A stretch of DNA of 34,042 nt from the IMG/VR virus record IMGVR_UViG_3300028800_000231, positions 1 through 34,042 of that record. One strand, given 5' to 3'. Each line of letters opens with the position of its first letter. Within the stretch, counting starts at the first letter, position 1. This document shows positions 7,308 through 25,395 of this stretch, piece after piece. The notes under the pieces are model-generated. The model saw only the letters and a program-made list of their open reading frames with translations, did not search any database and was not told where the DNA came from. The DNA comes from a virus. The translations under genes were made by a program, and so were the position numbers.

Positions 7308-7323
7308 TAATTCTCCCTAACTA
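7308..7323 (-). promoter_or_regulatory. Shine-Dalgarno-in-loop hairpin before the 187-residue tail gene
   Basis: Read on the minus strand: TAGTT-AGGGAG-AATTA, a 5-bp stem with one G-U pair. The loop is the ribosome site, three bases before ATG 7304. Confidence 0.5.
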
Positions 7324-7373
7324 AATTTAAATCCCTTTATTGACGTCACCAAAAGTTTTTGTGTAACTATTAA

Positions 7374-7793
7374 TTATGTAAATGTTAACCCTGTACTTGA
7401 TATGCTTACGATACCCCAGGTGTTATTTGCAATTCCTATTAAAATCAAATTGTCAGTATTATTAGCACTTGATAGAGAACTATACACATGTCCAAAGGCG
7501 ACGATAGAGCCACCTGCGCCAACTGTTACTGTCCAGGTACCTTGAGAGCCTTGGATACCAACTAATTGACCTGCTGTTACAGTTGTTGGCAATGTGATGG
7601 CGGCTGTTGCGCCTTGTAGTACATAGCCATTATTTACGGCTGCTGTAAATCCTGTAGAGGATGTCGATTGCCAGCTAATAGCATTGGGATTTGCAGTGAA
7701 CAGTGCATTTACGCCCCCACGCAATCCTACAATAAGATCGCCACTTACAAGTTGACCATCATTCGGAAATGCACTCCATTTTATATCTGCCAT
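7374..7793 (-). CDS. Small tail or virion protein
   Basis: I chose ATG 7793 (139 residues, MADIKWSAFPNDGQ) with CGGAG eight bases upstream, over TTG 7799 directly after the upstream stop. The N-terminal DLIVGLRGGVNALF motif is common in small phage tail proteins. The remainder is Gly/Thr/Val-rich beta structure. The ribosome site lies within the end of the preceding 61-residue gene, so translation is coupled. Confidence 0.65.
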   Translation of the reverse strand: MADIKWSAFPNDGQLVSGDLIVGLRGGVNALFTANPNAISWQSTSSTGFTAAVNNGYVLQGATAAITLPTTVTAGQLVGIQGSQGTWTVTVGAGGSIVAFGHVYSSLSSANNTDNLILIGIANNTWGIVSISSTGLTFT

Positions 7794-7799
7794 GTTCAA

Positions 7800-7985
7800 T
7801 CACTCCGTGATCATTAAATTATTTCCTGTTTCGGTTTGCATATATAACCCATCTTCCGTAATCATATAAAAACTTCCAGGGGGAGGAACTATATATCCCA
7901 GAGATACATTTACATTGAATGGGCTAGTAACAATAGGATCGTCATCAGTAAGATTAAATCCCAGTGCATTATTTAGCGCGCCCAT
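7800..7985 (-). CDS. 61-residue virion protein with MITE beta repeats
   Basis: The C-terminal third has three repeats of the type M-I-T-E / M-Q-T-E / M-I-T-E separated by D-G or T-G turns, predicting a tight beta meander. The gp10-like protein at 14740-16323 carries the same repeat. The gene starts directly after the upstream stop. A structural role on the particle is inferred from its place. Confidence 0.6.
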   Translation of the reverse strand: MGALNNALGFNLTDDDPIVTSPFNVNVSLGYIVPPPGSFYMITEDGLYMQTETGNNLMITE

Positions 7986-8348
7986 TTATGTAAGGCTCGC
8001 ATAGTTATTAAGAATTTGCAGCTCTACACAGAAAAATGGCACTGTAGCATCTGAGGTTATAAGGCTAATAGTGCTCCCACCCTTTACCTGCCTGCCTGCG
8101 GGATTAAGGACTGTATGAACTGCGGCTACTGAAGACGCGGGAACAGTCGCAGTCCCTGAGAAATTTACCCAGATATTAGCTCCAGGGGAAAAAGTGAAGA
8201 TTGCAAGCCAGTATTCGTTATTATTGGGTACTGTAAAGTGTTGTTCGGTATTAGCTGCGAGTGCGCCCGCATATATATCATACGTGGGTATTAGACCAAA
8301 GGCGTTATAGCCATTGATGTCTCGTGTCATACATAATTTTGTACTCAT
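7986..8348 (-). CDS. Small virion (decoration or tail) protein
   Basis: This 120-residue protein (MSTKLCMTRDINGYNAFGLI) has a pattern I associate with small phage virion proteins: C-x-T-R-D-I-N-G-Y-N near the start and N-N-E-Y-W-L-A-I-F-T-F-S-P-G in the middle. The fold is probably a beta sandwich. It lies between the large tail protein and the MITE protein. Role inferred, not shown. Confidence 0.6.
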   Translation of the reverse strand: MSTKLCMTRDINGYNAFGLIPTYDIYAGALAANTEQHFTVPNNNEYWLAIFTFSPGANIWVNFSGTATVPASSVAAVHTVLNPAGRQVKGGSTISLITSDATVPFFCVELQILNNYASLT

Positions 8349-8350
8349 AA

Positions 8351-8368
8351 TAAGTCATCCTTAACTTA
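8351..8368 (-). promoter_or_regulatory. Shine-Dalgarno-in-loop hairpin before the 120-residue gene
   Basis: On the minus strand TAAGT and ACTTA pair around the loop TAAGGATG, which holds AAGGA; the stem ends two bases before ATG 8348. Confidence 0.5.
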
Positions 8369-8386
8369 AATTTCCTTTAATTTATT

Positions 8387-10585
8387 CTATACGATGCCTA
8401 AGCGACAGTCAGCAGTGTAATGGTAAAGCACTTGCCCTTCATCTCCTGCAAGTCCTGCGGATGCTGTTAATGCTGATGGGTTTGTTTTTATACACAATAA
8501 AAAAACCCCATTAGTAGAGCTATAAGTATATGTATAGTTGGTGTTTATAGTTATATTTTGTGGGTTTGCAGCATCGGCTACAATTGCAGATCCATTTCTG
8601 AATATTCCAATTCTTACAGAACCATTAGCGCCGCTAGATGTTCCATCTGGCGAATAGAATTTTAGTTGCGGAATTATTCTTTTAACGGTTTTAAAATTTA
8701 ACTGGAATGAATTTAAGCACATTATGTCTAATGGTGTCATACCAGTAGGATCAACAACAATTATATTATTGTAAGCATATTTTAACCCAACAGTTGTATT
8801 CGTCCCAGGAGCAGTTGGCAACTCATAGCTTTTCTCATAGTAATACTGACATTCACGCAAAACCTCATTTTGAGACTTTGCACCTGGTCTTGTCGCAATG
8901 TATCCCTTATTTAATGATACTGATAGCAAATCAATATTAGTTGACGCCGTGGGCGCTGCGAATGTAACTACAATTGCAAAATTAGCTGTTGAAGATGTGC
9001 CATAGTATTTTTTAGCATTAAACCCATTAAATCTCATGTCAATTTCACCACTGCTACCGGACGGAATCATGAATGAACCTGTTGGTGTAAATTGTGTTAT
9101 TTCAGCCCAGTTAGCGGCAGATAGTGAAAATACACCCGAACTATTGACAGTTCCAATGGTCGTGGGCAGTGTTGGTATGGTTCCACCACCATTCGAATAA
9201 TACATGTAAACATTTATAGCACAACCAACGGCTCCTGGCGCATAAACTGTAACCATTGAGCTCACAATTGCTGAGACTACATTAAAAGCCTCATCTCCTG
9301 TTAAATACTGCAATATGTACCAAGCCTGGTTATTTGCAGTAGTGAGAAATACAGCATTTTGTGTTGTTCCATCAAAGCCAAAGTCGACAGTTCCACTACT
9401 CGTTGCAGCAATTGTTTGATCACAAATATAACTCGGAGTTGTTGTAATAGATGTATTAATAAATTGTGCAGGATTTAATATGAAATCCCATCCGGTTAAT
9501 AAGCTCGGTATAGGTTTAAATTGTAAGTGATTATTGTAATCATGAAAAAGCTGGTCTTGAATTCTCTCGACAGTCTGTTCAAGGTATTGAACAACCTCGC
9601 CATTGCCAACACCGCATAACTGTACACACGATATTAAAAAAGGATGTCCCTGGGGGAATACGAGCGTTATATCAACATATCCCGCACCACTCCCAGGATC
9701 ATCTATTAAAACCGGAAGGATATTAAATATACGTGTAAATTCTGAAGATAGGGTTGTGCCTGTACAAATTTGTTGTATTGAACTTGTAATTGATGGCGTG
9801 TAATTCATGCTGACTGTATAAGCGCCTGCATCTTGAGATGATATTATAAAAGTCGCGGAGACATTTTTATTTGCAAACAATCTTGGGTTTAAAATTCTTT
9901 GTCTAAGGATTATAGGTTGTGTAAATCCAGTCGTATTTATATAGAGAGCATATGCAGGATTGCCTAATGAAGGGTCTGCCGAGGTATCATCGGCAACAAC
10001 ATCCCTATATAGGAACAGTGTTCCAGAGCCTGTGGTAACTACATCCCAGTCCGGTGCAATTGGTGTTGCAGTTTGTGTGCCTGTTACATTTAATGACCAA
10101 GGGAGTGATGGTGATGCATTGAGAGGGAATGATACATCAACAAATTGTGTGTTTGCCAATACATTATCAGTAGTATCAAAATCAATTGTGGCAGATGATC
10201 CACTGCCAACGCCAGGCCAATTAATAATATCAAATTGAAATACGCCAGTAGAGCTTTCAACAGTTATATAGTAGTTTTGTGCGGTTTGAGAAGGGGGAAC
10301 ATCATCAGGGTTGCCAGTGAATGGCCATAGGTATACGGGTATATTGCCACCGTTTTCATCTATGTATGTGCCAATACCTGAAAGTGTTAATTCGGCACCT
10401 AGGGATACGTAGCTGTAGTTACCGGGACCTGAGCCTACGAGTTCATAGACAATTTTCGGAGTAGTTCTTGCATCATCTCTGAAGAACTTTACTATACCAC
10501 CTGATAGGGGAACGTTTAATGTTTTATCCCACAATTGCTGTTGAAGCGGGGGCATTAATATCGTATTATTGCTAAACGTTGCCAT
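8387..10585 (-). CDS. Large tail protein (putative fibre or tail-spike)
   Basis: This 732-residue protein begins with a motif shared by many podovirus tail proteins, in which the tail subunit introduces itself as PLSGGIVKFFRDDARTTPK (about residues 26-44). A Y-I-D-E-N-G-G-N-I-P-V-Y-L-W-P-F strand follows. At about 574-592 it has L-R-E-C-Q-Y-Y-Y-E-K-S-Y, a segment recurrent in phage virion fibres. The rest is beta-rich and low in Lys. I see no depolymerase catalytic motif and cannot say whether it is enzymatic. It is the largest tail gene, next to the ejection proteins. Confidence 0.75.
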   Translation of the reverse strand: MATFSNNTILMPPLQQQLWDKTLNVPLSGGIVKFFRDDARTTPKIVYELVGSGPGNYSYVSLGAELTLSGIGTYIDENGGNIPVYLWPFTGNPDDVPPSQTAQNYYITVESSTGVFQFDIINWPGVGSGSSATIDFDTTDNVLANTQFVDVSFPLNASPSLPWSLNVTGTQTATPIAPDWDVVTTGSGTLFLYRDVVADDTSADPSLGNPAYALYINTTGFTQPIILRQRILNPRLFANKNVSATFIISSQDAGAYTVSMNYTPSITSSIQQICTGTTLSSEFTRIFNILPVLIDDPGSGAGYVDITLVFPQGHPFLISCVQLCGVGNGEVVQYLEQTVERIQDQLFHDYNNHLQFKPIPSLLTGWDFILNPAQFINTSITTTPSYICDQTIAATSSGTVDFGFDGTTQNAVFLTTANNQAWYILQYLTGDEAFNVVSAIVSSMVTVYAPGAVGCAINVYMYYSNGGGTIPTLPTTIGTVNSSGVFSLSAANWAEITQFTPTGSFMIPSGSSGEIDMRFNGFNAKKYYGTSSTANFAIVVTFAAPTASTNIDLLSVSLNKGYIATRPGAKSQNEVLRECQYYYEKSYELPTAPGTNTTVGLKYAYNNIIVVDPTGMTPLDIMCLNSFQLNFKTVKRIIPQLKFYSPDGTSSGANGSVRIGIFRNGSAIVADAANPQNITINTNYTYTYSSTNGVFLLCIKTNPSALTASAGLAGDEGQVLYHYTADCRLGIV

Positions 10586-10601
10586 ACAGTGTCCTTACTG
10601 T
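10586..10601 (-). promoter_or_regulatory. Shine-Dalgarno-in-loop hairpin before the large tail gene
   Basis: On the minus strand ACAGT-AAGGAC-ACTGT forms a 5-bp stem that directly abuts ATG 10585, with AAGGA in the loop. Confidence 0.55.
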
Positions 10602-10647
10602 TTTAATACTACATTCTACGCTTTATTTATAATATGACAAGAAAGCG

Positions 10648-10695
10648 TTACCAGTCTGCCCATATAATTAAAGCCAAACCTATTAAGATAAGCAT
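10648..10695 (-). CDS. Possible 15-residue hydrophobic micropeptide
   Basis: In the 167-base gap upstream of the tail gene, ATG 10695 reads MLILIGLALIIWADW and stops. GAGGA lies seven bases before it, an ideal spacing. The peptide is almost entirely membrane-like. The site may be accidental; nothing else in this gap looks coding. Confidence 0.3.
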   Translation of the reverse strand: MLILIGLALIIWADW

Positions 10696-10752
10696 CACAT
10701 AATCCTCAAAAATATTATTTAATATTAAATCACATTGATGAAAATACCTTCA

Positions 10753-12498: not shown

Positions 12499-13712
12499 AG
12501 CCTCTTTTTAGATATACTATTTCTCACTAATTGCCTCTGCTGAGGTGTTAATCCTTTCATGTAATTATGAAAGTCTAACTTACTCCTGAAAGTTGTTTGT
12601 GGAACAAAAAATTTCTGCCTGCCACCTAAACTATTATATTTTTCACTATTTAAGTTAATAGATCTTTCGAGTTCATCTTTTATTTTATGTAATTTTCCTA
12701 CAGCATTTTTTTGATTTTCTCCAATGGTTGGCTTTATGTTTCTTGAAATTCCAAAAGCTGTTGCCAATACCTTATTAGAACCTGATAACTCTTTGGCTTT
12801 GGGACCAATAAGTCCTTCTAAAATTGACTCTAAAATACCGAATTCTGGATCGTTAACTTTACGTTTGGTCGCCTCAACTCCAGTTAATGGACCCGTAAAA
12901 GGCGTGTGAGTTGTAAACCAGTGAGGATGTGATTCAGCTATTCTTATTGCATTATTCACGTCAGTAAGCACTTGGTAGGCCTGAGGAATATTGACCTCAA
13001 GTTCTGTACGTGTCTTTACGTCTTGTTCTGATTGTTTTGTTTCTGATTCAGAAGGACCAATCTTTGTTGATGTAATTCCAGAAAGTGGATTTTCTGTAAT
13101 TAATTGTCCATTAAGTACTTGAGTTTTTATTGGAATTCCCAAAAGTGCTGCCTGTAGGTTAGCTCTATTTTTATTTCCAGATTGTTGAGTCCCATTACTA
13201 TTTTGATAACTAGGTGCTTCAGACGGACGCAATAACTGTTCTGCAAATGTAGTTGGTTGATACGAAGTATTACCGCCATTGCCCTGGTCACCCTGGTTTC
13301 CTGAACTATCAGCAAAAGCCTTCTCCCATGCATTTTGTATTGCAGCAGCTTTTGATGCTTTGGCTCTTGCCTCTAAAGCCTGCGCAATCTTAAATTGCTG
13401 CTCATAAGGCAACATTTTTAATTGCCCTCTATGAAGTGCGGCTTGTGCACCTAAACTACCTGTTCCAGCTTGTGTGTATTGCAAATCAGCCAAAGCTTGC
13501 TGCATGGCATATTTAGCCTTTGCCTCATTTATTTTATTCGCAAGCTCTTTTCCATAGGCCTCATTCTCAAGATTCCTCGGCTTAAACTTAGTTTCTTGAT
13601 AAAGATTATAATTTCCCAGCCCTGACTTAATGGCCTCACCTAAGTCAAATCCGCCAAATCCACCCACATCCGAGGCATTCAGTTTTGGTAAATTAGGATA
13701 ATTAATTGCCAT
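12495..13712 (-). CDS. Putative DNA-ejection protein (gp20-position)
   Basis: This 405-residue protein, Gln/Ala/Lys-rich and largely helical, has an N-terminal segment with DVGGFGGFDLGEAIKSGLGN (about residues 16-35), then a coiled coil (about 45-140). A low-complexity Gly/Asn/Gln linker (about 140-180) and a helical C-terminal part follow. Such composition and its place between a gp7-like and a gp16-position gene are typical of P22-type ejection proteins. TTAGGAGAATAA sits before the start, an imperfect version of the loop hairpins at neighbouring genes. Assignment is positional. Confidence 0.6.
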   Translation of the reverse strand: MAINYPNLPKLNASDVGGFGGFDLGEAIKSGLGNYNLYQETKFKPRNLENEAYGKELANKINEAKAKYAMQQALADLQYTQAGTGSLGAQAALHRGQLKMLPYEQQFKIAQALEARAKASKAAAIQNAWEKAFADSSGNQGDQGNGGNTSYQPTTFAEQLLRPSEAPSYQNSNGTQQSGNKNRANLQAALLGIPIKTQVLNGQLITENPLSGITSTKIGPSESETKQSEQDVKTRTELEVNIPQAYQVLTDVNNAIRIAESHPHWFTTHTPFTGPLTGVEATKRKVNDPEFGILESILEGLIGPKAKELSGSNKVLATAFGISRNIKPTIGENQKNAVGKLHKIKDELERSINLNSEKYNSLGGRQKFFVPQTTFRSKLDFHNYMKGLTPQQRQLVRNSISKKRL

Positions 13713-13722
13713 GCTTATTCTC

Positions 13723-14382
13723 CTAACCTGGATTAGACCAAGGGGCTACACTTGAACCTGACATAGGACCCGCTAAAGCACCAGCCGCAGCACCAGCAGG
13801 ACCACCCATAGCCATAGCAGCCATATTTACAAAATTCTTAAACATTTGTGATCTGGCTGCATTTTGACCCGCTTGTCCGTTGTAAGCCGCCCCTCCTTGC
13901 TGAGCCAAATTACTGCCTAAAATATCTCCGTATCCTGTGGACGCACCAAACCCTTGTGTCTCAAGACCCTGTGTGCCTTGTAAGCCCGTGCCATATAAAC
14001 CCAATACATGATTAAGGTAATTCTCAAAATCTTGTCCATGTAGGTCTAAGGCTTTCTGAGCGGATAATGATTGATGCTCTTGCGAACCTGCCATTCCACC
14101 TGCCGCTTCAGCATTAGTAATCCCACGCAGTGCTTCAGTTAATCGTGTTTGATATCCAGGAGATTCCTTGTAGCCTTCAGAAAACTTGTTATACATAGCA
14201 TTAGGGTCGTTCATGAGCGTGTCATATTGACCCGTCACTTTACCTAATGCATTCTGTCCAGAATTGATATATGGCTGGTAGTACGGATTTACCGCACCTG
14301 GTATTTGCTCATAGTATTTATTAGCAGCATCGGCAGGATTCTTTCCTATAAAAAAATTGCCTATTTCATCCCAAAATGACAT
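13723..14382 (-). CDS. Putative DNA-ejection protein (gp7-like)
   Basis: This 219-residue protein starts MSFWDEIGNFFIGKNPADAA and then has a YYEQIPG-type region. The order S-P-G-Y-Q-x-R-L-T-E-A-L-R-G at about 74-87 is followed by an Ala/Gly-rich stretch (NAEAAGGMAGSQ), as in P22 gp7-family transfer proteins. The C-terminal third is hydrophobic and Gly/Ala/Met-rich (about 180-210), compatible with membrane insertion during DNA injection. It is the first of the three ejection genes. Family assignment is by motif layout. Confidence 0.7.
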   Translation of the reverse strand: MSFWDEIGNFFIGKNPADAANKYYEQIPGAVNPYYQPYINSGQNALGKVTGQYDTLMNDPNAMYNKFSEGYKESPGYQTRLTEALRGITNAEAAGGMAGSQEHQSLSAQKALDLHGQDFENYLNHVLGLYGTGLQGTQGLETQGFGASTGYGDILGSNLAQQGGAAYNGQAGQNAARSQMFKNFVNMAAMAMGGPAGAAAGALAGPMSGSSVAPWSNPG

Positions 14383-14404
14383 ATTAAACTCCTTTTAAAA
14401 TGTC
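14378..14404 (-). promoter_or_regulatory. Shine-Dalgarno-in-loop hairpin over the gp7-like start
   Basis: On the minus strand the loop AGGAG is closed by TTAAA/TTTAA, then a T-T mismatch, then GACAT/ATGTC. The outer arm overlaps ATG 14382, so the start codon itself is inside the stem. Confidence 0.6.
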
Positions 14405-14743
14405 TTAGGTCAATGTAACGGTCTTAAAAATAGGTGGCGTATTAGGATAGGTATTATCATTACGCACCGCTATCATGACCTTGTCTTGCGTGTAATCGTT
14501 TGGATCTGCTATCACATAAAGAATAGTTCCTAATTGACAGCTATATTGACCCTGTGTATTTTTAGTATTCTGTATTATTGTAACATTACTAGCCGATTGC
14601 GTGGGAGAAACTAATCCCTCGTCACTAGTTACAGATTGCAAAGATTGTATTAAATTCTGCCTAAATTGGTACTCCTCAGGCGTCGGATACCCATCGGCTT
14701 CAACTACTTTGCTGACCGTTAAATCTGGTATATTCATCGTCAT
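14405..14743 (-). CDS. Small virion-associated protein, unknown function
   Basis: This 112-residue protein has an N-terminal helix with G-Y-P-T-P-E-E-Y-Q-F-R-Q-N-L-I-Q-S-L-Q and a C-terminal beta half with LGTILYVIADP. Proteins of this layout occur beside gp10 in P22-like and related podoviruses, where they are virion or assembly proteins. It overlaps gp10 by four bases (ATGA), so the two are made together. No known enzymatic motif. Confidence 0.55.
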   Translation of the reverse strand: MTMNIPDLTVSKVVEADGYPTPEEYQFRQNLIQSLQSVTSDEGLVSPTQSASNVTIIQNTKNTQGQYSCQLGTILYVIADPNDYTQDKVMIAVRNDNTYPNTPPIFKTVTLT

Positions 14744-16323
14744 AAATAAGCCTCAACAAGTCCTGGTCCCACAACATATCGAGACAAACCAACAAACTGC
14801 AAACGCGCTGTAAAATCATTAGCCCGCCCAAGTCTCTGAAATATAAATCTTGATTTACGGCGAGCCGTGAGATTCATAGATAACGGCACATTATTACCAA
14901 ATGCCTCGCCACCATCACGAGAAACTGCAAGAAATACAGTCATATTAGTTGTATCTGTTACAAAAGGATTTAGTGAACCCTCTGTAATCATGCGCCTATT
15001 GCCTGTTTCCGTTATCATGAAGTCTTCAGTTACTTCAGTTATCATATATTCAGGAATCTGTTCGTTGATAAAATTAGGTTGCCCTTGCTCAATAGTGAAT
15101 CCTAGGCTTTTAAATATTAATGGCCGCTGAGTAGGGAGCCTTATAGGCGAGCAAATCCTAACGCGAGGAATCTCTTCCACTCGGTCTTGATAGGTATATG
15201 TTGAAAATTGTGTACCAAACGCATAAAGATTTGGGTCATTAAAACTGACGAAATAATACGTGTTATTGAAATAAACAATTTTCCTGGCAGGATGATAGTT
15301 CATCTCTTGGTCTGTAATCGTAAAAAAGGTCTTATTATTTAAATCTAGTGCAAGCGTTAGGTTATCCGTTTTAAAAGTTACCTGATAGAATAAGTGGCCG
15401 TCAATCTTAACTAAAAATCCGCTACAATCCTCTGGCGCTGTCAGTGTTGAAAATAGATAGTCGATACCGTCTGTTGATACCTCATTTATGTCACCACCAG
15501 TAGTATACATAACGACAGGTCCCGCTTCCTCGCTAATACCTATCCAAACAATATAATTGCCTTGATACGCTATTGAACCTGGATTTATACAACCATAGTC
15601 AAGACTCACAGAGTTATTGCGCGACCAGGGGAATAAGGCCTTTCCCGTAAACGTCCACTGTTCGCCCACTGTATTCCCAAAAACAAATGTCATATTGCCG
15701 CGTCCTGGCATGGGGACTACGGCCTGTACGGTATCAGGTTTAATTTGTAATTGACCAACAAATGCATCCTGATTAGGCCAGGAATTGCCATTATTTGGCT
15801 CTGATAGTCGCCATCTCGCCTCATTTACGGCAGCAGCAATAAAATAGGTATTTTGGAATGCTAGAAATCCTGGAATAAAATCTATAACGGGGATAGTAAA
15901 GGTTAGTAATGTTTGATCCCAAATATAAATATTAACGCCATCTGAAAATGCAATCTGCCCTTTATTATTCTCCGCTATGTAGACCTCGCCCGTTGTTGTT
16001 GCAAGAATCCCCACAATGGTAGGCACGAGATTATGATCAAAACTTACAACGTTATTACCAGCAATAACATACATTTTATTAAATACAGTACTGACGTGGG
16101 CACCCCTGCCACTAGAAGATGGTGTATTTGTTATATTTGCTACAAATTTAAACCCTGCATAATCTACAAGAAATCCATCCGTTATCATCATATTGAATGT
16201 TTGGGCGACAGTGATTTTTGGATATCTTCCATAGGTATTACCGCCCACGATATCAAGCGGGATTTCAAATATGCCTTGTGCGTTTTTAGGCGCTAATGGC
16301 TGTACGGGTGAAGAATCTGCCAT
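14740..16323 (-). CDS. P22 gp10-like tail accessory factor (packaged-DNA stabilisation)
   Basis: This 527-residue protein has the gp10-family order: an N-terminal propeller-like beta region (RYPKITVAQTFNMMITDGFL, residues 35-54). Characteristic steps follow, such as R-G-A-H-V-S-T-V-F-N-K-M-Y and I-A-F-S-D-G-V-N-I-Y, and then W-R-L-S-E-P-N-N-G-N-S-W. A V-V-P-M-P-G-R-G-N-M-T-F-V-F-G stretch precedes W-S-R-N-N-S. Gp10 extends the portal/gp4 channel and closes the packaged head. A C-terminal insert at about 427-448 has three MITE repeats shared with the 7800-7985 gene. Somewhat longer than P22 gp10 (472 aa from memory). It sits downstream of gp4, after the inserted HNH gene. Confidence 0.75.
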   Translation of the reverse strand: MADSSPVQPLAPKNAQGIFEIPLDIVGGNTYGRYPKITVAQTFNMMITDGFLVDYAGFKFVANITNTPSSSGRGAHVSTVFNKMYVIAGNNVVSFDHNLVPTIVGILATTTGEVYIAENNKGQIAFSDGVNIYIWDQTLLTFTIPVIDFIPGFLAFQNTYFIAAAVNEARWRLSEPNNGNSWPNQDAFVGQLQIKPDTVQAVVPMPGRGNMTFVFGNTVGEQWTFTGKALFPWSRNNSVSLDYGCINPGSIAYQGNYIVWIGISEEAGPVVMYTTGGDINEVSTDGIDYLFSTLTAPEDCSGFLVKIDGHLFYQVTFKTDNLTLALDLNNKTFFTITDQEMNYHPARKIVYFNNTYYFVSFNDPNLYAFGTQFSTYTYQDRVEEIPRVRICSPIRLPTQRPLIFKSLGFTIEQGQPNFINEQIPEYMITEVTEDFMITETGNRRMITEGSLNPFVTDTTNMTVFLAVSRDGGEAFGNNVPLSMNLTARRKSRFIFQRLGRANDFTARLQFVGLSRYVVGPGLVEAYL

Positions 16324-16341
16324 TTAACCATCCTTGGTTAA
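16324..16341 (-). promoter_or_regulatory. Shine-Dalgarno-in-loop hairpin before gp10-like gene
   Basis: On the minus strand TTAACC-AAGGAT-GGTTAA is a perfect 6-bp stem that directly abuts ATG 16323; AAGGA fills the loop. Confidence 0.65.
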
Positions 16342-16473: not shown

Positions 16474-17016
16474 CTATTCCTCATGCTGCTTTAGATAGTC
16501 TATTGCAGCTTGTAATATTTTTATATTATCCTTAAGTTTTCCCAATCCTATATTACAAGAAAAACACAATAAACCTCTGATTTTTCCACTTTTATGATCA
16601 TGGTCTAAACATAACCTTCTTGTTTCACCTAGAAACTTTCTAGTTTCTTGTAGTCCACAAATATTACATTTATTATTACAATCAATGACGAATTGATTGT
16701 ATTCTTCTAATTTTAATCCATACTTTCTTATTATTCTTTTAGTTACTTTATCATACGCGTTAGTTTCATTATATTTAGTAGCATAATTTTTATATTTTTC
16801 TGGATTTTTTTTTCTGTTTTCATCCAGCCATGTTTTTGCTTTATTCCGAGTTTTCTTATTATATTCTTGATTTTTTTTTCTTATTATTTCTTTATTTCTT
16901 TCTGTATAAATTTTCCTCTTCTCATACCGACATAATCTACATACATTTCTATCATTGTTATCTTTAAATTTATCTATATTGTGAATTTCACAATATAGCT
17001 TAGCTATATTTGGCAT
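16474..17016 (-). CDS. HNH endonuclease of the recombination endonuclease VII family
   Basis: This 180-residue protein has the endonuclease VII-type motif: Y-G-L-K-L-E-E-Y, then C117-x-x-C120, D138-H139-D140-H141, K-x-R-G-L-L, C151-x-x-C154-N. G-L-G-K-L-K-D-N follows near the C-terminus. A second Cys pair (C26, C29) near the N-terminus precedes a long basic coiled coil (about 30-80) that probably contacts DNA. Family members resolve DNA junctions or act as free-standing homing nucleases. As it sits between two virion genes with its own promoter, a homing role is more likely. Its Lys/Asn-rich composition differs from the neighbouring structural proteins, supporting later acquisition. Confidence 0.85.
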   Translation of the reverse strand: MPNIAKLYCEIHNIDKFKDNNDRNVCRLCRYEKRKIYTERNKEIIRKKNQEYNKKTRNKAKTWLDENRKKNPEKYKNYATKYNETNAYDKVTKRIIRKYGLKLEEYNQFVIDCNNKCNICGLQETRKFLGETRRLCLDHDHKSGKIRGLLCFSCNIGLGKLKDNIKILQAAIDYLKQHEE

Positions 17017-17018: not shown

Positions 17019-17035
17019 AACACCTCTCTAGTGTT
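17019..17035 (-). promoter_or_regulatory. Shine-Dalgarno-in-loop hairpin before the HNH gene
   Basis: On the minus strand AACAC-TAGAGAG-GTGTT, with the ribosome site in the loop, ends two bases before ATG 17016. A second hairpin (AATATAGC/GCTATATT, 16992-17010) lies just inside the coding region. Confidence 0.5.
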
Positions 17036-17048
17036 CTCATTTAAATTA

Positions 17049-17116
17049 CAAATCCAGGTTAATGAGATTTTAACTTTTCGCCCCGTCAGGCTAGGATTTG
17101 CAACAACATTATAACA
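17049..17116 (-). promoter_or_regulatory. Extended -10 promoter and stem in the HNH leader
   Basis: On the minus strand TGTTATAAT (17108-17116) is a complete extended -10. The roughly 90-base leader contains CAAATCC (17093-17099 arm) pairing GGATTTG (17049-17055 arm) around 37 bases. This gap between gp4 and HNH is AT-rich and otherwise non-coding. No -35 of good fit is seen. Confidence 0.4.
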
Positions 17117-17858: not shown

Positions 17859-17860
17859 GT

Positions 17861-17876
17861 CTTCTCTCCCTAGAAG
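17861..17876 (-). promoter_or_regulatory. Shine-Dalgarno-in-loop hairpin before gp4-like gene
   Basis: On the minus strand CTTCT-AGGGAG-AGAAG pairs perfectly over 5 bp and ends two bases before ATG 17858; the hairpin fills the whole gap after the upstream stop (17877). Confidence 0.6.
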
Positions 17877-18668: not shown

Positions 18669-18669
18669 G

Positions 18670-18688: not shown

Positions 18689-18702
18689 AGTCTAATAGGC
18701 CA

Positions 18703-20037
18703 TTAAAGGGGGAAAATCATACGCATTGAGTCTTCCGCTATTAAAGTGGAACCCCAAGTACAGTCACGCACGTATGACCTATTGTCCTTACCAAATTGAA
18801 CACCCCAATAGTGACGAAGTGAAGCACCAGACTCTTTGTCTTTGAAGTACACAGTTTCGAAAGGTGATTGGTTAGGAAGGCGCGGCATAGCTAAGTAGAA
18901 ACTATTACCAGCATCCATCCAGCCTGCTTGGTGAGAAGGAAGAACGGTTGCCTGCATTCCCGCTTGAATAGCATTGTTAATGTTCTGGTTCTGATTTTGC
19001 GCACTGACTAAACCAATACTGTTGTTAATGGTTTGTACATTCACAACCACGGTTCCACCTACTGAATTCGCATTAGCAATAGCTCTAAACTGCACACGCA
19101 AACGTGTAGGAGTGTGGCCTATGAAAGTCAAGAAACGCATGTTAGGTTTACCAGGCACACCATCGTTGAATTCCAGAAGGTCACCCGCCAAAATAGCATT
19201 AGCCGCAGTTGAGCCCGTAGGTTCTGTAAAGGTGATTTGTGTAACGTTCACACCTGTTGGATCATTAGTAGAAACAACAGTTAAAACGTTATTAGGAGAA
19301 GCAGCATTACCAACAAATCCTGAAATGTGAATAGGGAGTAAATTCGATACACCCCATTTAACGTCAAGACCTGCATATGAACCCAATTCCCAAGCTTTAG
19401 CAATTTCATTGTTTCGGTCTGGTGCAAATTGGTTTAAACCAGTTCCTACGATTGCTGGAACAAGATCAATCGGTATAACACCACGCTTCATATGTGTTGA
19501 TGCGCCAAACGCCGTAAAATTTGCCCAAGCTTGTGCTAATTGCTGATAGCTATTAATGGGCGTGATTCCATCGCCGTAAAATCGGAAAGGACCAGAGTTA
19601 ATTTGAGCCTGTCCAAACTCAGGACTATTAGGGTTGTTACCCACAACGCCTGAAACGATATTCTTCAAGATATCTAATTCAACGCCTGCGCCAATTTCTT
19701 TAGCCGCAGCAATACCGAATCTGTCCATATACTGCTCAACATTGAAGATGAACTGTTCATCGGTGTAGGCAGCGGACACGTTCTTTGCCTGTGAGCAGAT
19801 AAGAGATTGTAAACGTTGAACTGATGGTTGCTCGGTAATTACAAGACCATCATAGGAAATATAACGTGGTGTACAGTCGAAAGTTATAACGTCACCTAAA
19901 TTTCCAGGGCGCTCGTTAAATTCTTCTAGTGATTTGTTAGCATTTGATATACCCCAATATTCGTTATCGAGCCATGCAAGCTCAGATTTGATATAGAGTT
20001 GTACATTCTGTAAAATATTGACCGGTGTAGTAGCCAT
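18703..20037 (-). CDS. Major capsid (coat) protein, P22 gp5-like
   Basis: This 444-residue protein has the P22-coat-like start and core. After residue 40 comes N-E-R-P-G-N-L-G-D-V-I-T-F-D-C-T-P-R-Y, then D-G-L-V-I-T-E-Q-P-S-V-Q, and an AAKEIGAGVELDILKNIVSG helix region. The beta-rich stretch at about 240-340 resembles the coat I-domain insertion. It ends with W-G-V-Q-F-G-K-D-N-R-S-Y-V-R. P22 gp5 is 430 residues. It lies after the scaffold and is probably among the most abundant late products. An SD hairpin covers its start. Confidence 0.8.
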   Translation of the reverse strand: MATTPVNILQNVQLYIKSELAWLDNEYWGISNANKSLEEFNERPGNLGDVITFDCTPRYISYDGLVITEQPSVQRLQSLICSQAKNVSAAYTDEQFIFNVEQYMDRFGIAAAKEIGAGVELDILKNIVSGVVGNNPNSPEFGQAQINSGPFRFYGDGITPINSYQQLAQAWANFTAFGASTHMKRGVIPIDLVPAIVGTGLNQFAPDRNNEIAKAWELGSYAGLDVKWGVSNLLPIHISGFVGNAASPNNVLTVVSTNDPTGVNVTQITFTEPTGSTAANAILAGDLLEFNDGVPGKPNMRFLTFIGHTPTRLRVQFRAIANANSVGGTVVVNVQTINNSIGLVSAQNQNQNINNAIQAGMQATVLPSHQAGWMDAGNSFYLAMPRLPNQSPFETVYFKDKESGASLRHYWGVQFGKDNRSYVRDCTWGSTLIAEDSMRMIFPL

Positions 20038-20040
20038 GAG

Positions 20041-20060
20041 TATTCCTCTCCATGTGAATA
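20041..20060 (-). promoter_or_regulatory. Shine-Dalgarno-in-loop hairpin before the coat gene
   Basis: TATTC/GAATA (5 bp) closes a 10-base loop holding GGAGAGG (minus strand), three bases before ATG 20037. Confidence 0.5.
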
Positions 20061-20098
20061 AATTCTTTGGAGAAAAGCTGCATGACTATCATTTGAGG

Positions 20099-20848
20099 TT
20101 ATTTAAATTTTCTTACTAATAAACGCCTTAATTCCTCGGATGACATATCATGCTGGCTTTTCTCAACGTTGCCAGATGTTGTCGAGGATTTAATTTGTGA
20201 CATTGGATCACGCGCTTGTGCTTCTTCAGCTTTAGCGGATTGATTGGTCTTAATAGAATCACTTAAACTTTTTAATGCCTTCTGTGCTTGATAAGGCTGA
20301 TTGTGAGCCATATTCAAGAGATGTTCCATTTTAGTAGGATTGTCTATCACTTCTTTCATTATAGCCCCTGTATTCTCTAACTGGTTCGCCATAGCGATGA
20401 AAGAGTGCATACGTGGGTCGTTATAGTTTAAGTTATTAAGCTCGGCCTCTAGGCCAGGGTGCTCGGATTCGGCTAATTGCATCTTTTGAACAAACGTATT
20501 TACCATTTGTTTTTGCTGCAAGTCCTGTACGTGTTGCTGAAGCGCTAAGGGTGCTCTTTCTGAAATCATGCGCTCAATATCTGCTTGAGACATTTGTCTC
20601 ATTCCTCCCATCCCAACATTCGATGCTTGTTCCTGGGGAGCCTGAGGATTCTCGTTCGCGTCCATTTGATTCTGCTGTAATTCCATTAAAGCCTCTCTTT
20701 TGCCTCGTTCAAATGCTTTTGCCTTTTCGCGTTCCACCACTTTCTTTACCGTTTCACTTGTAAACGTTTTCTTTGGCTCTTCCGCTACAGGCGCAGTATC
20801 TGCAACAGGCACAACTTCCTGTTCTAGGGCTTCCAATTCTTCTGTCAT
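20099..20848 (-). CDS. Scaffolding protein
   Basis: This 249-residue charged, helical protein has an acidic N-terminus (residues 1-25) and a basic coiled coil (TVKKVVEREKAKAFERGKRE, 34-53). A Gln/Asn/Met-rich middle follows, and the extreme C-terminus is short and basic (S-S-E-E-L-R-R-L-L-V-R-K-F-K). A basic C-terminal helix that binds coat is the hallmark of P22-type scaffolds, which assemble the procapsid and then exit. It precedes the coat gene as expected. P22 scaffold is about 303 residues. Confidence 0.7.
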   Translation of the reverse strand: MTEELEALEQEVVPVADTAPVAEEPKKTFTSETVKKVVEREKAKAFERGKREALMELQQNQMDANENPQAPQEQASNVGMGGMRQMSQADIERMISERAPLALQQHVQDLQQKQMVNTFVQKMQLAESEHPGLEAELNNLNYNDPRMHSFIAMANQLENTGAIMKEVIDNPTKMEHLLNMAHNQPYQAQKALKSLSDSIKTNQSAKAEEAQARDPMSQIKSSTTSGNVEKSQHDMSSEELRRLLVRKFK

Positions 20849-20861
20849 AAATCCTCTTTAT
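20847..20861 (-). promoter_or_regulatory. Shine-Dalgarno-in-loop hairpin over the scaffold start
   Basis: On the minus strand ATAAA-GAGGA-TTTAT: 5-bp stem with the ribosome site as the loop; the last two bases of the stem are within ATG 20848. Confidence 0.55.
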
Positions 20862-20972
20862 CGACTGAAATTAGCGGTGTCACCGTGAAAAAATCATTAC
20901 ATTACGTGTAAAGTTTCGGCCAGGTTCGCGTTTGGCGACGTTATGTATATCTTTAATACTAAGGTAGTTCAT

Positions 20973-21001: not shown

Positions 21002-21002
21002 C

Positions 21003-21173: not shown

Positions 21174-21191
21174 TTCAATATCCTTATTGAA
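21174..21191 (-). promoter_or_regulatory. Shine-Dalgarno-in-loop hairpin before the His-rich gene
   Basis: On the minus strand TTCAAT-AAGGAT-ATTGAA: perfect 6-bp stem directly abutting ATG 21173. Confidence 0.65.
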
Positions 21192-21205
21192 TGCTAATAG
21201 GTGGA

Positions 21206-21610
21206 TTACTTCATACCTTTTTGTTCTTTATATTGGTTTTTGTACTTTTTGTCTTTAAGGTCTTTTTCAGCTCTTTTTTCAACACGTCCTTCATTATTTT
21301 CAGATTTGCTAGAACGCTTAGAGCCAAACTTATCGCCCATGCTTTGATAACCCATTTTTTTCCCCTTTTGATTTTCATCCGTTAATTTCACTAGGTACTT
21401 GTTTATTTCAACTAGAAAATTGTGCATTATTTCATGTTGTTCTTCAAGAATTTTTACTTTTCCAGAAAGCGCATTAGTCTCCTTTCTCAATGCCTCGTAA
21501 TCAATAAATTTTCTCCCCAAAATTTTATATGAACAACACACCCAGTCTACTTTATCATTAATTTCTTTAAATAAAACCTTAAATGATTTTCCTATAAGCC
21601 ACTTTATCAC
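21206..21610 (-). CDS. Coiled-coil protein with internal duplicate of the MGYQSMGDK start
   Basis: This 134-residue protein starts at GTG 21610 with AAGGA nine bases upstream. It has an N-terminal hydrophobic/basic region (MIKWLIGKSFKVLFKEI), then a coiled coil (about 40-78). A Lys/Glu-rich end begins with MGYQSMGDK at residue 86, exactly the start of the neighbouring 70-residue protein. An internal ATG at 21355 has AAGGGG seven bases ahead, so a separate 49-residue product is possible. It overlaps the upstream gene by four bases. No family recognised. Confidence 0.55.
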   Translation of the reverse strand: MIKWLIGKSFKVLFKEINDKVDWVCCSYKILGRKFIDYEALRKETNALSGKVKILEEQHEIMHNFLVEINKYLVKLTDENQKGKKMGYQSMGDKFGSKRSSKSENNEGRVEKRAEKDLKDKKYKNQYKEQKGMK

Positions 21611-21819
21611 TGATTCTTATCCTTACGCATTTTAGCCTTGTAAGCCCTATCTTCAGGCTGTGGCGTCTTCTTACGTGTGCGCTCGTGAACGGCTTCACGT
21701 TTTCCAGCCGTAAGCGGGTCAACGATAGGCATGTCTTTGCGCTTTATAGTCTTGCCCCCAGGTGCACGTTCCTTATCTACCATTTTACGTGGCTTATCAC
21801 CCATACTTTGGTAACCCAT
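21607..21819 (-). CDS. 70-residue basic protein starting MGYQSMGDK
   Basis: I chose ATG 21819 with AAGGAG upstream; the longer frame to 22008 runs through two other small genes. The protein is highly basic and disordered (K, R, P rich; KREAVHERTRKKTPQPED). Its first nine residues are identical to residues 86-94 of the next gene's product. Nucleic-acid or virion-interior binding is possible from charge alone. Unknown function. Confidence 0.6.
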   Translation of the reverse strand: MGYQSMGDKPRKMVDKERAPGGKTIKRKDMPIVDPLTAGKREAVHERTRKKTPQPEDRAYKAKMRKDKNQ

Positions 21820-21829
21820 TATGATCTCC

Positions 21830-21961
21830 TTATTTTTTCTTCTTAGGTTTAACATGCTCTGGTAATTTCTTAATGCTTTTTGTCTTTGATGCAAACTCTT
21901 TTGCAACCTCAGGTTCATTTGCGAACAAATATTTGGCCTGCGCCTTAGATTTAAATGGCAT
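21830..21961 (-). CDS. 43-residue conserved-type phage protein (MPFKSKAQAKYLFA)
   Basis: MPFKSKAQAKYLFANEPEVA is the signature of a short basic protein found in many phages and prophages, in which the ending is K/R-rich (here KPKKKK). Known from memory; its function is not established. A GGGGGA site precedes ATG 21961. It lies in a minus-strand cluster of tiny basic genes. Confidence 0.65.
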   Translation of the reverse strand: MPFKSKAQAKYLFANEPEVAKEFASKTKSIKKLPEHVKPKKKK

Positions 21962-21970
21962 TGTATCCCC

Positions 21971-22084
21971 CTATTTAAGGCACTTCTCTTTAACCATACC
22001 CTTAACAAGCTTCTTATCGTCCCTAATATCAGGATGCTTCTTAACTTGCTTTCTCTTCATGCCACTTTTAGGCTTATCACGCAT
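21971..22084 (-). CDS. 37-residue basic protein
   Basis: MRDKPKSGMKRKQVKKHPDI continues to K-C-L-K. Twelve of the 37 residues are Lys, plus Arg. AGGAGA six bases upstream of ATG 22084 supports translation. It resembles its neighbours in composition only. Function unknown. Confidence 0.55.
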   Translation of the reverse strand: MRDKPKSGMKRKQVKKHPDIRDDKKLVKGMVKEKCLK

Positions 22085-22093
22085 TTGTATCTC

Positions 22094-22282
22094 CTATCTG
22101 TAATCGTTATCATCAAATTGGAAATTATGTCCTATGTTGCAAGGGTTATATGTTTTTAGCTCTTGCTTTGGATTTTTAGAGCGATTTCTTTCAAGTTCTT
22201 CATTTATCTTGTCAATGCGATAATTTCTGTAACTTGTGAATTGCCCCCTAACCCTCGGTCGCCGTGCGCTATCCTTGTTCAT
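22094..22282 (-). CDS. 62-residue basic protein, unknown function
   Basis: This protein is Arg/Asn-rich (MNKDSARRPRVRGQFTSYRN), helical in the middle, and has one cysteine. It starts inside the end of the upstream 80-residue gene (overlap 14 bases). No family recognised. Confidence 0.5.
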   Translation of the reverse strand: MNKDSARRPRVRGQFTSYRNYRIDKINEELERNRSKNPKQELKTYNPCNIGHNFQFDDNDYR

Positions 22283-22511
22283 TTTCCGGTTCCTTCTTTT
22301 TCAATTCTGGGAATGTTGATTCTAGGAATTCCATAAGTTCTATAGCATTATCTAAGCCTAGCGTTATAGAGTATTTTTCCTTGTCTTTCTCGTTTTCTTT
22401 ATAACATAACTTAGTGTAAAAATTAAACGCATCCCCATGCGATAATAATGAAATCACTATTGTATCTGGGTATAAGTTTGACTTAACCGCCCTAAGCTCA
22501 AATGTATTCAC
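22269..22511 (-). CDS. 80-residue small protein, unknown function (GTG start)
   Basis: This mixed alpha/beta protein (V-K-S-N-L-Y-P-D-T-I-V-I-S-L-L-S-H-G-D-A-F-N-F) reads from GTG 22511, with AAGGG nine bases upstream. It has a charged Lys/Glu tail. It overlaps the upstream gene by four bases. I do not recognise it. Confidence 0.55.
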   Translation of the reverse strand: MNTFELRAVKSNLYPDTIVISLLSHGDAFNFYTKLCYKENEKDKEKYSITLGLDNAIELMEFLESTFPELKKKEPENEQG

Positions 22512-22690
22512 TTCCTAAGACCCTTTAAGGTAGCGGCTAAATTTGCTCGCTTACGGGTTAATGGGTTCTTGCTATGCTCGGCCTTCTTAAGCTTCTTAGC
22601 AGGTATTTTTTCGCCTTCAGGCACGCCTAAGCTTTTATGAAGCGCGCCAGGATGTTTTATAGCTTTGCTAATCCATTTATCCTTACTCAT
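22508..22690 (-). CDS. 60-residue phage protein of the KWI..AIKHPGALHK type
   Basis: The motif W-I-x-K-A-I-K-H-P-G-A-L-H-K-S-L-G-V-P-E-G-x-K-I-P-A-K-K-L, then P-L-T-R-K-R-A-N-L-A-A-T-L-K, is a familiar small phage protein often found near portal and capsid genes. Its function is not known to me. It starts in an ATGA overlap with the upstream gene, so the two are coupled. Confidence 0.75.
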   Translation of the reverse strand: MSKDKWISKAIKHPGALHKSLGVPEGEKIPAKKLKKAEHSKNPLTRKRANLAATLKGLRK

Positions 22691-22833
22691 AGGGTAGGTT
22701 CCTCTTTCTTTTTAGGCGCTTTAAATCCTTGTATCTCTAGTTCTATAAGTTCACGTAGCTTCTTAATGCTAGGATTAGACATAGAGTCAATCAGATCCAT
22801 AATAGCCCGTAATGTACCCAAGTAGGTTGCCAT
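22687..22833 (-). CDS. 48-residue small protein, unknown function
   Basis: MATYLGTLRAIMDLIDSMSN starts at ATG 22833 with AAAGGAG upstream and ends as a basic proline-containing tail (KAPKKKEEPTL). Helical. Its end overlaps the next gene by four bases, and both ends are well formed, so I consider it real although short. Confidence 0.6.
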   Translation of the reverse strand: MATYLGTLRAIMDLIDSMSNPSIKKLRELIELEIQGFKAPKKKEEPTL

Positions 22834-22844
22834 TATCTCCTTTC

Positions 22845-23057
22845 TTATATCCATCTTGTTGGCTTCCCATAACGTGTCTCAAGATTGCGTTTATAGAACT
22901 TTGTCATTAACTCTGTTCGATCTTTGTTATTAATGCCATCTGTAATCTTAAACATAGCATCATGTATAGACACCCTATCATGGCCTAAAGCCTCTAGGCG
23001 CTCAACGCCTCCTTTGGCGTCAAGATCATTCGCTGTTATCTTGTATTTGCTTGTCAT
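22845..23057 (-). CDS. 70-residue small protein, unknown function
   Basis: I chose ATG 23057 with AAGGAG eight bases upstream, over the longer frame to 23096 that lies in the membrane-peptide gene. MTSKYKITANDLDAKGGVER is followed by a helical, charged middle (H-D-R-V-S-I-H-D-A-M-F-K-I-T-D) and a basic end. A small helix-turn-helix is possible but not certain. Confidence 0.6.
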   Translation of the reverse strand: MTSKYKITANDLDAKGGVERLEALGHDRVSIHDAMFKITDGINNKDRTELMTKFYKRNLETRYGKPTRWI

Positions 23058-23082
23058 ATGCGCTCCTTGCAATAAAAAGTCT

Positions 23083-23190
23083 TTAAACACACGCATCTTG
23101 CGTGTTATTCAATGTATCAATACTATAATCTATAGTCTCTATTAATGCCGCAACTGCAATTGATAATATTATGATTTTAACTATTTCCAT
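23083..23190 (-). CDS. 35-residue single-span membrane peptide downstream of portal
   Basis: MEIVKIIILSIAVAALIETI is a membrane helix; the rest is polar and acidic. It overlaps the portal stop by 14 bases in another frame, with AGAAG just before the ATG. Its place beside portal recalls tiny membrane peptides in phage structural operons, but the role is unknown. Confidence 0.5.
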   Translation of the reverse strand: MEIVKIIILSIAVAALIETIDYSIDTLNNTQDACV

Positions 23191-25375
23191 CTTCTTTTTT
23201 CTCACCTCTAATTCTATGATGTAATTCTACGGATTTTCGTATTGATTCATGTTCATCCATTTTCTTTTTATGTTCAATGGAGGCTAATTTTGCCACAGCA
23301 TCAAGACTATGAGACACAATCTCAGCGTGTGCCTTTTCGCGTTGTACTGCGGCTGATATTTCTGATTGTTCGGCTTCGTGCTGCACAAGTATTGCTTCAT
23401 TTTGAACTTTTTCTTGTTCGAGCGCTAATTGTGCTCCTAACTCGGCTATTTTTACTTCGCGTTCAAACTGTTGTTGTTGGTCTTTCATCTGCAATTCTTG
23501 TTCTTCTAATTGTACTTTTTTCACATCCGCCTGGGCTTTAATCATGCGTGGGTCTTGCATCATCATTTTTTGCTGCATTTGCATAGCCTGCTGTTTTTCT
23601 TTTTGTTGCTGTTGCATCCATTTACCTGCTGCATCTTTGAGTCTATCAGCACCGTAGATAGTCAGATTGTCGAGTAGTATGGGTAAGCCCATGTCACTTG
23701 CAAAAAATTCAGCTAGTTTAGGATTAGACTGTGTTAACCCTATGATGGATTGTAATGCTTTATTCTTTTCTACCTGGAAGTTCACACCTGCATTAATCTG
23801 TACTTTGATAGCGCCCTGTTCATAGTTGATTGAAGGTTTACCAGGTACGTTAATGTCCTGGTAAACCCTGTCCCCTTCACGATTAACGACAGGGATGGTG
23901 CGCCGCCCTAGTAGATATTTAGGCATTAAATCTACGTGTATACGAGCCATTTGCTCAAGCCCTGCGAGATATCCTATAGTGTATGGCATGCCGGCGGCAT
24001 TATCAGCGTTAGACGCCTCTATAATCGCCTTCCCTGATATATAGTCTTGTGCGTTCTCAGGATTTGACGCACCACTTCCAAGGATAGCTTGTATAAACTG
24101 TATAGACTGGTTAAATGTAGCCATAACCTCAGGCGGCAATGCTGGATATTGAACCTCGCGTATAGGTGTAGGTATAGGTTTATCAGGGTTATTTTCACTA
24201 TATGCTCTAACTACGATTGTGTTAGCGCGCTGTGGATTTGTGATAGCGTCTATATAGTCTTGTTGCTGTGGTATTGCTTCTTCCATTACGATGAATTTGC
24301 TTGCACTAAGGTTATCCGTGCTATTAGTGATAGCTATACCCATAAAGTTCATCATATCCTGGGCGCCCTTGGCGTGGTAATAGTATGGCTTTGTGAATTG
24401 GTAGCTAGTATTTGTATGACCTTTGCATAAGATGTCACTGTTACCGTCAAAGAAAACATGTGGTAAGTAGCTATAGTCCGTTTCCGTATATTCGAGTATT
24501 TCATCCTTTATAAATTTCCAGTTGCAGATTACATCAATGACTGTCATTCGTGAAGCTACTATCTCGGGGATTTGCTCAATGATTTGGTTATCTTCCCAGT
24601 ACTTTTGCATCTTTTCATATTGCCTAATAGTCATGACGCGCCCGTCTGCTATTTTGACTATCTTTTTACGCTTCTTCTTTTTCTCATAGAAATCACATAC
24701 TAGTATTATGTATCGGTCGTACATGTCCTTGTATGACCACTGGTATGATTCTATATAAGTGCTGTCAGCTTTTAGTGATAGCTTTACCTTCGGGAATTGC
24801 TTTTGTAGGTCTTCAGCTATCACGGGATACATCTCGAATGAGAATTGACCATCCCCTTTGTGCGAACTACGTGCTAGTGGGTCAAAGCCCACAAGTGTCG
24901 CATCAAAGCATTTTTCCCAAAATATATCCTGATTAAGGCTCATAGGGCTTTGATAGTCTGTAAATACCTTTGCTGCTGAAAAGCCACCACCTAACATGTC
25001 TTTGTAGATTTCGTTGCTGAAGGAGTTCTTATTGGCATCATGTATCTTATGGCGGATGTTGCCTTCTACTGTGTCGATTACGTCCGTGCCAACGGGGTTT
25101 CCTTCGCTTGCAGATATTGTGATTGATGGTTCATGCATAGAGAATTCGCCAAGCTTCCTAGAGACTGAAGCGGCGCCTAAATTAAATTCTAGCTGTGGAC
25201 GATTTAGGGATGTAAGCATACCCTTTTGTTGTTCGTTGAGGGTTTCTCTAAATGTGTAGGTCTTGAAGTCGCGGAAGCGTTGGCAGTTGTCTTTGAAATA
25301 GATATATGCTGTTTCTACTGATTTACAGAGTCGATATAACTCGTCTTGTTGCTCTTTATAGTCCTTTGTGCTCAT
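23177..25375 (-). CDS. Portal protein, P22 gp1-like
   Basis: This 732-residue protein matches P22 portal in length (725) and plan. The N-terminal part has L-C-K-S-V-E-T-A-Y-I-Y-F-K-D-N, then R-P-Q-L-E-F-N-L (about 58-65), and V-I-D-T-V-E-G-N-I-R-H (about 98-108). A G-G-G-F-S-A-A-K-V-F-T-D-Y motif follows. The last ~150 residues are a Gln/Glu/Met-rich helix bundle (from about 580), like the barrel of P22 portal. The dodecameric portal nucleates procapsid assembly and is the gate for DNA packaging. It has the best SD-in-loop hairpin of the set (7 bp). A candidate terminator lies between it and the upstream 112-residue gene. Confidence 0.85.
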   Translation of the reverse strand: MSTKDYKEQQDELYRLCKSVETAYIYFKDNCQRFRDFKTYTFRETLNEQQKGMLTSLNRPQLEFNLGAASVSRKLGEFSMHEPSITISASEGNPVGTDVIDTVEGNIRHKIHDANKNSFSNEIYKDMLGGGFSAAKVFTDYQSPMSLNQDIFWEKCFDATLVGFDPLARSSHKGDGQFSFEMYPVIAEDLQKQFPKVKLSLKADSTYIESYQWSYKDMYDRYIILVCDFYEKKKKRKKIVKIADGRVMTIRQYEKMQKYWEDNQIIEQIPEIVASRMTVIDVICNWKFIKDEILEYTETDYSYLPHVFFDGNSDILCKGHTNTSYQFTKPYYYHAKGAQDMMNFMGIAITNSTDNLSASKFIVMEEAIPQQQDYIDAITNPQRANTIVVRAYSENNPDKPIPTPIREVQYPALPPEVMATFNQSIQFIQAILGSGASNPENAQDYISGKAIIEASNADNAAGMPYTIGYLAGLEQMARIHVDLMPKYLLGRRTIPVVNREGDRVYQDINVPGKPSINYEQGAIKVQINAGVNFQVEKNKALQSIIGLTQSNPKLAEFFASDMGLPILLDNLTIYGADRLKDAAGKWMQQQQKEKQQAMQMQQKMMMQDPRMIKAQADVKKVQLEEQELQMKDQQQQFEREVKIAELGAQLALEQEKVQNEAILVQHEAEQSEISAAVQREKAHAEIVSHSLDAVAKLASIEHKKKMDEHESIRKSVELHHRIRGEKKEDGNS

Positions 25376-25376
25376 T

Positions 25377-25395
25377 GCTTAAAATCCTTTTAAGC
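25377..25395 (-). promoter_or_regulatory. Shine-Dalgarno-in-loop hairpin before the portal gene
   Basis: On the minus strand GCTTAAA-AGGAT-TTTAAGC: perfect 7-bp stem, loop AGGAT, ending one base before ATG 25375. Confidence 0.7.

Follow-up and report, generated by a model that had tools for sequence, protein, structure and literature searches.

In the usual form of repression by the RNA-binding protein CsrA, the protein sits on a GGA and blocks access of the 30S ribosomal subunit. The sites of the CsrA/RsmA/RsmE family, such as those of the glgC and hcnA leaders and the hairpins of CsrB and RsmZ, present ANGGA in a short loop, often a hexaloop, and the repression sites lie at the Shine-Dalgarno sequence (SD). 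In particular, CsrA and RsmE recognise hairpins with an ANGGAN hexaloop; in selection experiments (systematic evolution of ligands by exponential enrichment, SELEX) 51 of 55 RNAs carried GGA in the loop of a hairpin, the loop being a hexanucleotide in 44, additional loop bases reduce the affinity, and for one mRNA a single site is known to give repression (PMC7652899). The AAGGAU hexaloop of RsmZ-2, to which RsmA binds as well, is present in the solved RsmN complex (PMC3791407), and the CsrA sites of Legionella pneumophila consist of A(N)GGA predicted to lie in loops (PMC5338858). Phage-borne csrA genes have been described (PMC7366521), and host CRISPR-Cas has been proposed as their target (PMC8450108). 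Hairpins of this type, putative CsrA/RsmA-family sites, are described here around the SDs of most virion genes of a P22-like phage, represented by the uncultured viral contig IMGVR_UViG_3300028800_000231 of 34,042 bases (the window), whose late genes are located on the minus strand.

Hairpins at the late-gene starts

The SD lies in a short hairpin loop at 12 late-gene starts, namely those of the portal, His-rich, scaffold, coat, gp4, endonuclease VII and gp10 genes and of the genes at 13723, 8387, 7986, 7374 and 6741 (Table 1); these comprise the six stems quoted in a preliminary description of the window, each recovered at the gene named there. The stems come within 0–3 nt of the start codon or overlap with it, so that the hairpin covers the SD as a CsrA-type site does. 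The starts at 13712 (gene 12495) and 18668 (gene 17877, 3 bp) are without a good stem. The proposal that genes starting by overlap with their neighbour lack the structure holds for most of them and fails for gene 7374, an overlap gene with a stem, which in three related contigs (L031, L035 and L036) is kept as TGATTA/TGATCA variants.

In order to evaluate the excess over chance, 14 free-standing late leaders were anchored on the SD core and the best uninterrupted stem was scored, with 1 for a Watson-Crick pair and 0.5 for a G.U pair. A score of at least 4.5 was reached by 11 of the 14 genes, against expected numbers of 3.4 when the flanks were dinucleotide-shuffled and 3.2 when the genes exchanged their right arms, and 11 was never attained in 2000 trials (P < 5e-4); the excess over shuffled leaders that had been anticipated is therefore real. 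Early genes have lower scores, with one exception at 452. In contrast to the stem scores, whole-leader folding energies showed nothing unusual with respect to shuffles (z from -1.7 to +1.1) and the stems are weak; the property that is kept is therefore the placement of the SD in a loop and not the stability of the fold. This result bears on the idea that AT-rich leaders readily form stems by chance, to which the ordinary folding energies would be congenial; the placement statistic under two nulls, the covariation described below, which by itself refutes the idea, and the absence of hexaloop hairpins from the control genomes leave it almost no probability.

Covariation was tested by arm swaps between orthologues because MAFFT misplaced the loops of short leaders. 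Among close and intermediate relatives, a leader's own arms pair in 32 cases, against 7.8 (maximum 14) when the right arm is taken from an orthologue, which provides the compensatory changes that the preliminary description had named as a test. Orthologous leaders retain the loop and alter the stem on both sides: the relatives of gene 7986 have TTGAT-AAGGAT-ATCAA, TAGATAA-AAGGAT-TTATCTA and TATACC-AAGGAG-GGTATA; those of the tail gene ACGGT-AAGGAC-ACCGT and AATATC-AAGGAT-GATATT; those of the portal GTTTAAA/TTTAAAC and AGTTTAA-AAGGAT-TTAAACT; and those of gene 6741 TAGTTT/AAACTA and TGAGCAG-AAGGAA-TTGTTCA. The flanking pair of the coat hairpin also covaries (AATTC/GAATT, TTATTC/GAATAA), the gp10 loop is kept as AAGGAC in relatives G001 and G002, and the scaffold hairpin is almost unchanged among close relatives.

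Specificity of the loop

The hairpins keep a fixed register relative to the GG of the SD, and the commonest form is the hexaloop A-N-G-G-A-N (AAGGAU, AAGGAC, AGGGAG), of which AAGGAU is identical to the RsmZ-2 loop in the RsmN complex (PMC3791407, PMC7652899). The 14 free-standing leaders contain six hairpins in this register against 0.1–0.2 expected, and the pooled clade of the window 21 against 1.74. Among 102 leaders in the relatives, a loop of 6 with GGA at offset 2 occurs in 25 (1.2 expected) and other hexaloop registers in 0–1; readings with concentric loops of 4 and 8 nt derive from the 6-nt register. Moreover, the window has 222 ANGGAN sites on both strands, of which six form hexaloop hairpins, all at late SDs and none elsewhere; the remaining SD hairpins have loops of 5–10 nt. 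In the family, the first loop position is A in 37 of 40 hairpin leaders and in 161 of 289 leaders devoid of a hairpin (P 3e-6, relatedness being ignored), while the second position is alike in the two groups (P 0.15), a pattern that CsrA would be predicted to require. The preliminary statement that the structure and not the sequence is conserved is thus correct for the stems and has to be amended for the loop, which is kept in both sequence and size.

No hexaloop hairpin was detected in T4 (70–119 kb), P22, Vibrio phage 1.211 and MW202573, nor in 89 GGA-bearing leaders from two Legionella chromosomes; the csrA-bearing phage F116 has one.

Table 1. Hairpins and genes of the window, with positions in the 34,042-base contig
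Feature	Position	Strand	Sequence and remarks
Portal SD hairpin	25377..25395	-	GCTTAAA-AGGAT-TTTAAGC (alternatively AAGGATT heptaloop); 1 nt before ATG 25375
His-rich SD hairpin	21174..21191	-	TTCAAT-AAGGAT-ATTGAA, ANGGAN hexaloop; abuts ATG 21173
Scaffold SD hairpin	20847..20861	-	ATAAA-GAGGA-TTTAT; overlaps ATG 20848; loop GGA, base two before GGA not A
Coat SD hairpin	20041..20060	-	TATTC-ACATGGAGAG-GAATA, 10-nt loop including ATGGAG; competes with CTCC:GGAG pairing
gp4 SD hairpin	17861..17876	-	CTTCT-AGGGAG-AGAAG, ANGGAN hexaloop
Endonuclease VII SD hairpin	17019..17035	-	AACACT-AGAGA-GGTGTT, loop without GGA
gp10 SD hairpin	16324..16341	-	TTAACC-AAGGAT-GGTTAA, ANGGAN hexaloop, C-G closing pair
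SD hairpin of ejection-protein gene (13723-14382)	14384..14398	-	TTAAA-AGGAG-TTTAA
SD hairpin of tail gene (8387-10585)	10586..10601	-	ACAGT-AAGGAC-ACTGT, ANGGAN hexaloop
SD hairpin of gene 7986-8348	8351..8368	-	TAAGTT-AAGGAT-GACTTA, ANGGAN hexaloop, U.G closing
Gene 7374 SD hairpin	7797..7813	-	TGATCA-CGGAG-TGATTG; within overlap with upstream stop
SD hairpin of gene 6741-7304	7308..7323	-	TAGTT-AGGGAG-AATTA, ANGGAN hexaloop; second AGGGAT site just upstream
Terminase large subunit	26025-27551	-
Portal	23177-25375	-
Coat	18703-20037	-
Endonuclease VII	16474-17016	-
Head closure Hc3/gp10	14740-16323	-
DNA ejection protein	13723-14382	-
Small terminase (terS), Sf6-like	27757-28248
Small genes in the csrA slot of sister phages (between terS and replication genes)	28711..30787	+	opposite strand; no csrA here

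The labels scaffold, gp4, His-rich and tail derive from the preliminary description and gene order. The relatives retrieved by portal, gp10 and terminase searches are viral contigs, the nearest at 63–87% protein identity to the query, and profile searches added many others; annotated phages searched by DNA gave no close relative of the window. A scan of genome contigs with a single large terminase (TerL) protein yielded no relatives and one with a TerL alignment yielded 17. Related prophages are present in two Legionella genomes, one of L. maceachernii and a second of the same genus.

csrA genes in sister phages and in Legionella

CsrA above the curated Pfam cut-off (PF02599) is encoded in 19 of 50 terminase-related sister contigs (including L087, L091, L092, L106, L112, L114, L115, L122, L129 and L150), a frequency far above the 1.2% of phages reported (PMC7366521). 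Twelve phage CsrA sequences keep Leu4 and have Arg at the place of Arg44, two residues highlighted in CsrA (PMC7652899), and one of the proteins matches solved CsrA/RsmA structures. In the two contigs examined, L115 and L167, csrA has O/P-like replication genes on one side and terS on the other, on the strand opposite to the late genes, and is therefore phage-borne. In contig L062 (= L167/L168), which has a csrA gene, five virion genes are preceded by NNGGAN hexaloop hairpins, five in total against 0.29 expected, and each of these is ANGGAN. The idea that hairpins simply become fewer when a phage carries csrA was considered and discarded: csrA-bearing contigs have fewer hairpins on average, but L062 has both.

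As regards the bacteria, six CsrA-family matches occur in the L. maceachernii genome and four in the second Legionella genome; hexaloop hairpins precede several late genes of the second prophage and few of the L. maceachernii one. A csrA gene adjoining the L. maceachernii prophage had been suspected from contig numbers and was dismissed, since contig C15 is not the prophage contig.

Possible control of virion translation by CsrA and alternative explanations

The simplest explanation of these data, and a probable one, is that the SD hairpins are CsrA/RsmA-family sites through which a host or phage CsrA gates the translation of the virion genes. Repression is the predicted outcome since the sites overlap the SD: a CsrA dimer on the loop GGA would block the 30S subunit, and translation of the virion genes would not begin until CsrA is removed or titrated. 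With about ten such sites, a late transcript would also soak up CsrA and could lead to a threshold-like joint release of the virion genes. The protein would presumably come from the host in the clade of the window and may be the phage's own in sister phages. Among the roles listed in the preliminary description, that of a regulator target is hence supported and can be given the name of CsrA/Rsm.

Several observations weigh against this proposal. No csrA gene was found in the window or in 22 related records, being missing from the nearest relatives and from 14 further ones, and the absence from the window is probably real and not due to truncation because the window covers the slot occupied by csrA in sister phages, filled here by other small genes. 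The csrA-bearing contigs as a group have hairpins in 7 of 70 leaders (1.6 expected), versus 28 of 66 in the clade of the window. Most leaders offer one site, having a single GGA in 60 nt (more than one is found only in the leaders of starts 6687, 7304, 8348 and 20037), whereas many CsrA targets have two or more. The closing pairs are mainly U-A or A-U, while SELEX favours C-G; the portal, ejection-protein, scaffold and coat hairpins depart from the strict hexaloop, and that of endonuclease VII, although present as described, has no GGA in its loop. Finally, the statistic on the A at position 1 ignores relatedness, and the SD itself supplies AGGA, so that the match of the loop is partly built in.

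Another role, also among those first suggested, would be that the hairpins merely present or insulate the SD, preventing other pairing and raising virion translation with no regulator involved. The predicted folds place the SD in the loop for most leaders, the stems are weak enough for the ribosome to open and high expression of the virion genes is probable; closure in a 6-nt loop makes for a poor ribosome site, however, and presentation does not account for a register that is fixed, for the A in the first loop position, for the confinement to late genes or for the absence from early genes, T4, P22, Vibrio 1.211, MW202573 and Legionella genes. It is therefore not supported and considered unlikely. 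Operators for another RNA-binding protein or a small RNA, of phage or host, that prefers CsrA-like loops, such as a late-gene repressor of the phage, would suit a constant structure with variable stems, as would any loop-reading protein, and the small genes in the csrA slot have no assigned function. Nevertheless, a search of 26 relative loci, hairpin-bearing close relatives included, gave no match to these genes and hence no shared phage repressor; the textbook loop of CsrA is ANGGAN, and csrA is present in sister phages, which makes such a regulator quite unlikely. The hairpins could also be places at which a long late mRNA is processed or cut by a nuclease, similar to the SDs cut at GGAG by T4 RegB, as the GGA of the SD is a common core. 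Many loops are instead GGAU, GGAC or GGAA, and RegB acts mostly on early mRNAs, is hindered by secondary structure and has strong sites that share sequence 3' of GGAG and not a stem (PMC3014915); owing to these differences in targets and structure preference, RegB-like cleavage was set aside as highly improbable.

Other elements in the leaders

Further GGA hairpins upstream could make two-site leaders: TAAATT-AAAGGA-AATTTA at 8367-8384 (-) and TGCTAA-CGGAA-TTAGCG at 6716-6732 (-). In the coat leader (20038-20072, -) and in coat leaders of the sister clade, an upstream CTCC can pair with the GGAG of the SD; CTCC occurs in 16 of 54 GGAG-bearing coat leaders (32 when TTCC or CTCT are included) and in 0–1 in other genes, and the SD of the coat gene may alternate between a stem and a loop position. 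The scaffold leader has an upstream element at 20860-20893 (-), CGGTGACACCG followed by AGTC, consisting of a triloop hairpin with the loop GAC, for which a downstream GTC is a possible pairing partner; it is found in 17 of 38 leaders, down to ~40% scaffold identity, and in none below about 38%, and an Rfam search of the scaffold leader gave no match. Since the P22 scaffold autoregulates its own translation, this element is a candidate operator. Rfam also recognises an int-alpA RNA (RF02996, 43.5 bits) at 17035-17101 (-), immediately upstream of the endonuclease VII gene.

Relation to known systems and significance

In comparison with the known CsrA sites, those proposed here belong to many virion genes of one phage, are mostly single with AU-rich stems and are predicted from the sequence. 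Sister phages, like F116 and other phages with csrA or rsmA genes (PMC7366521, PMC8450108), carry csrA-family genes and the window does not; the published proposal for phage csrA concerns a host target, while here the targets would be the phage's own virion genes. T4 likewise exerts control at SDs through RNA structure or the GGA core, by RegB cutting and the gene 32/43 operators, but it acts on early or single genes with different proteins and has no SD-in-hexaloop rule over many genes (PMC3014915). A search of open-access literature turned up no description of CsrA sites on the virion genes of a phage. A Salmonella fimbrial mRNA is said to titrate CsrA, a result of 2013 attributed to Sterzenbach; the late mRNA with its putative CsrA sites could similarly be a sponge, a likeness that we infer.

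A broader scheme can be advanced tentatively: this phage family may lock virion translation with CsrA, with a separate hairpin on most late genes, the closing CsrA being phage-encoded in some members and provided by the host in others, and the late mRNA acting as its own sponge, so that a sharp switch-on would occur when enough late mRNA has accumulated or when CsrA activity is lowered by the host as growth ends.

Genes for CsrA occur on phages and plasmids, and the likely targets in this family are the phage's own virion genes, each of which has a candidate site of 15–20 nt. If the proposal is true, virion production would be tied to a host growth-phase regulator through translation and not through a late promoter; in Legionella it would be linked to the switch from the replicative to the transmissive phase, and the hairpins would offer a simple sequence sign for other phages.

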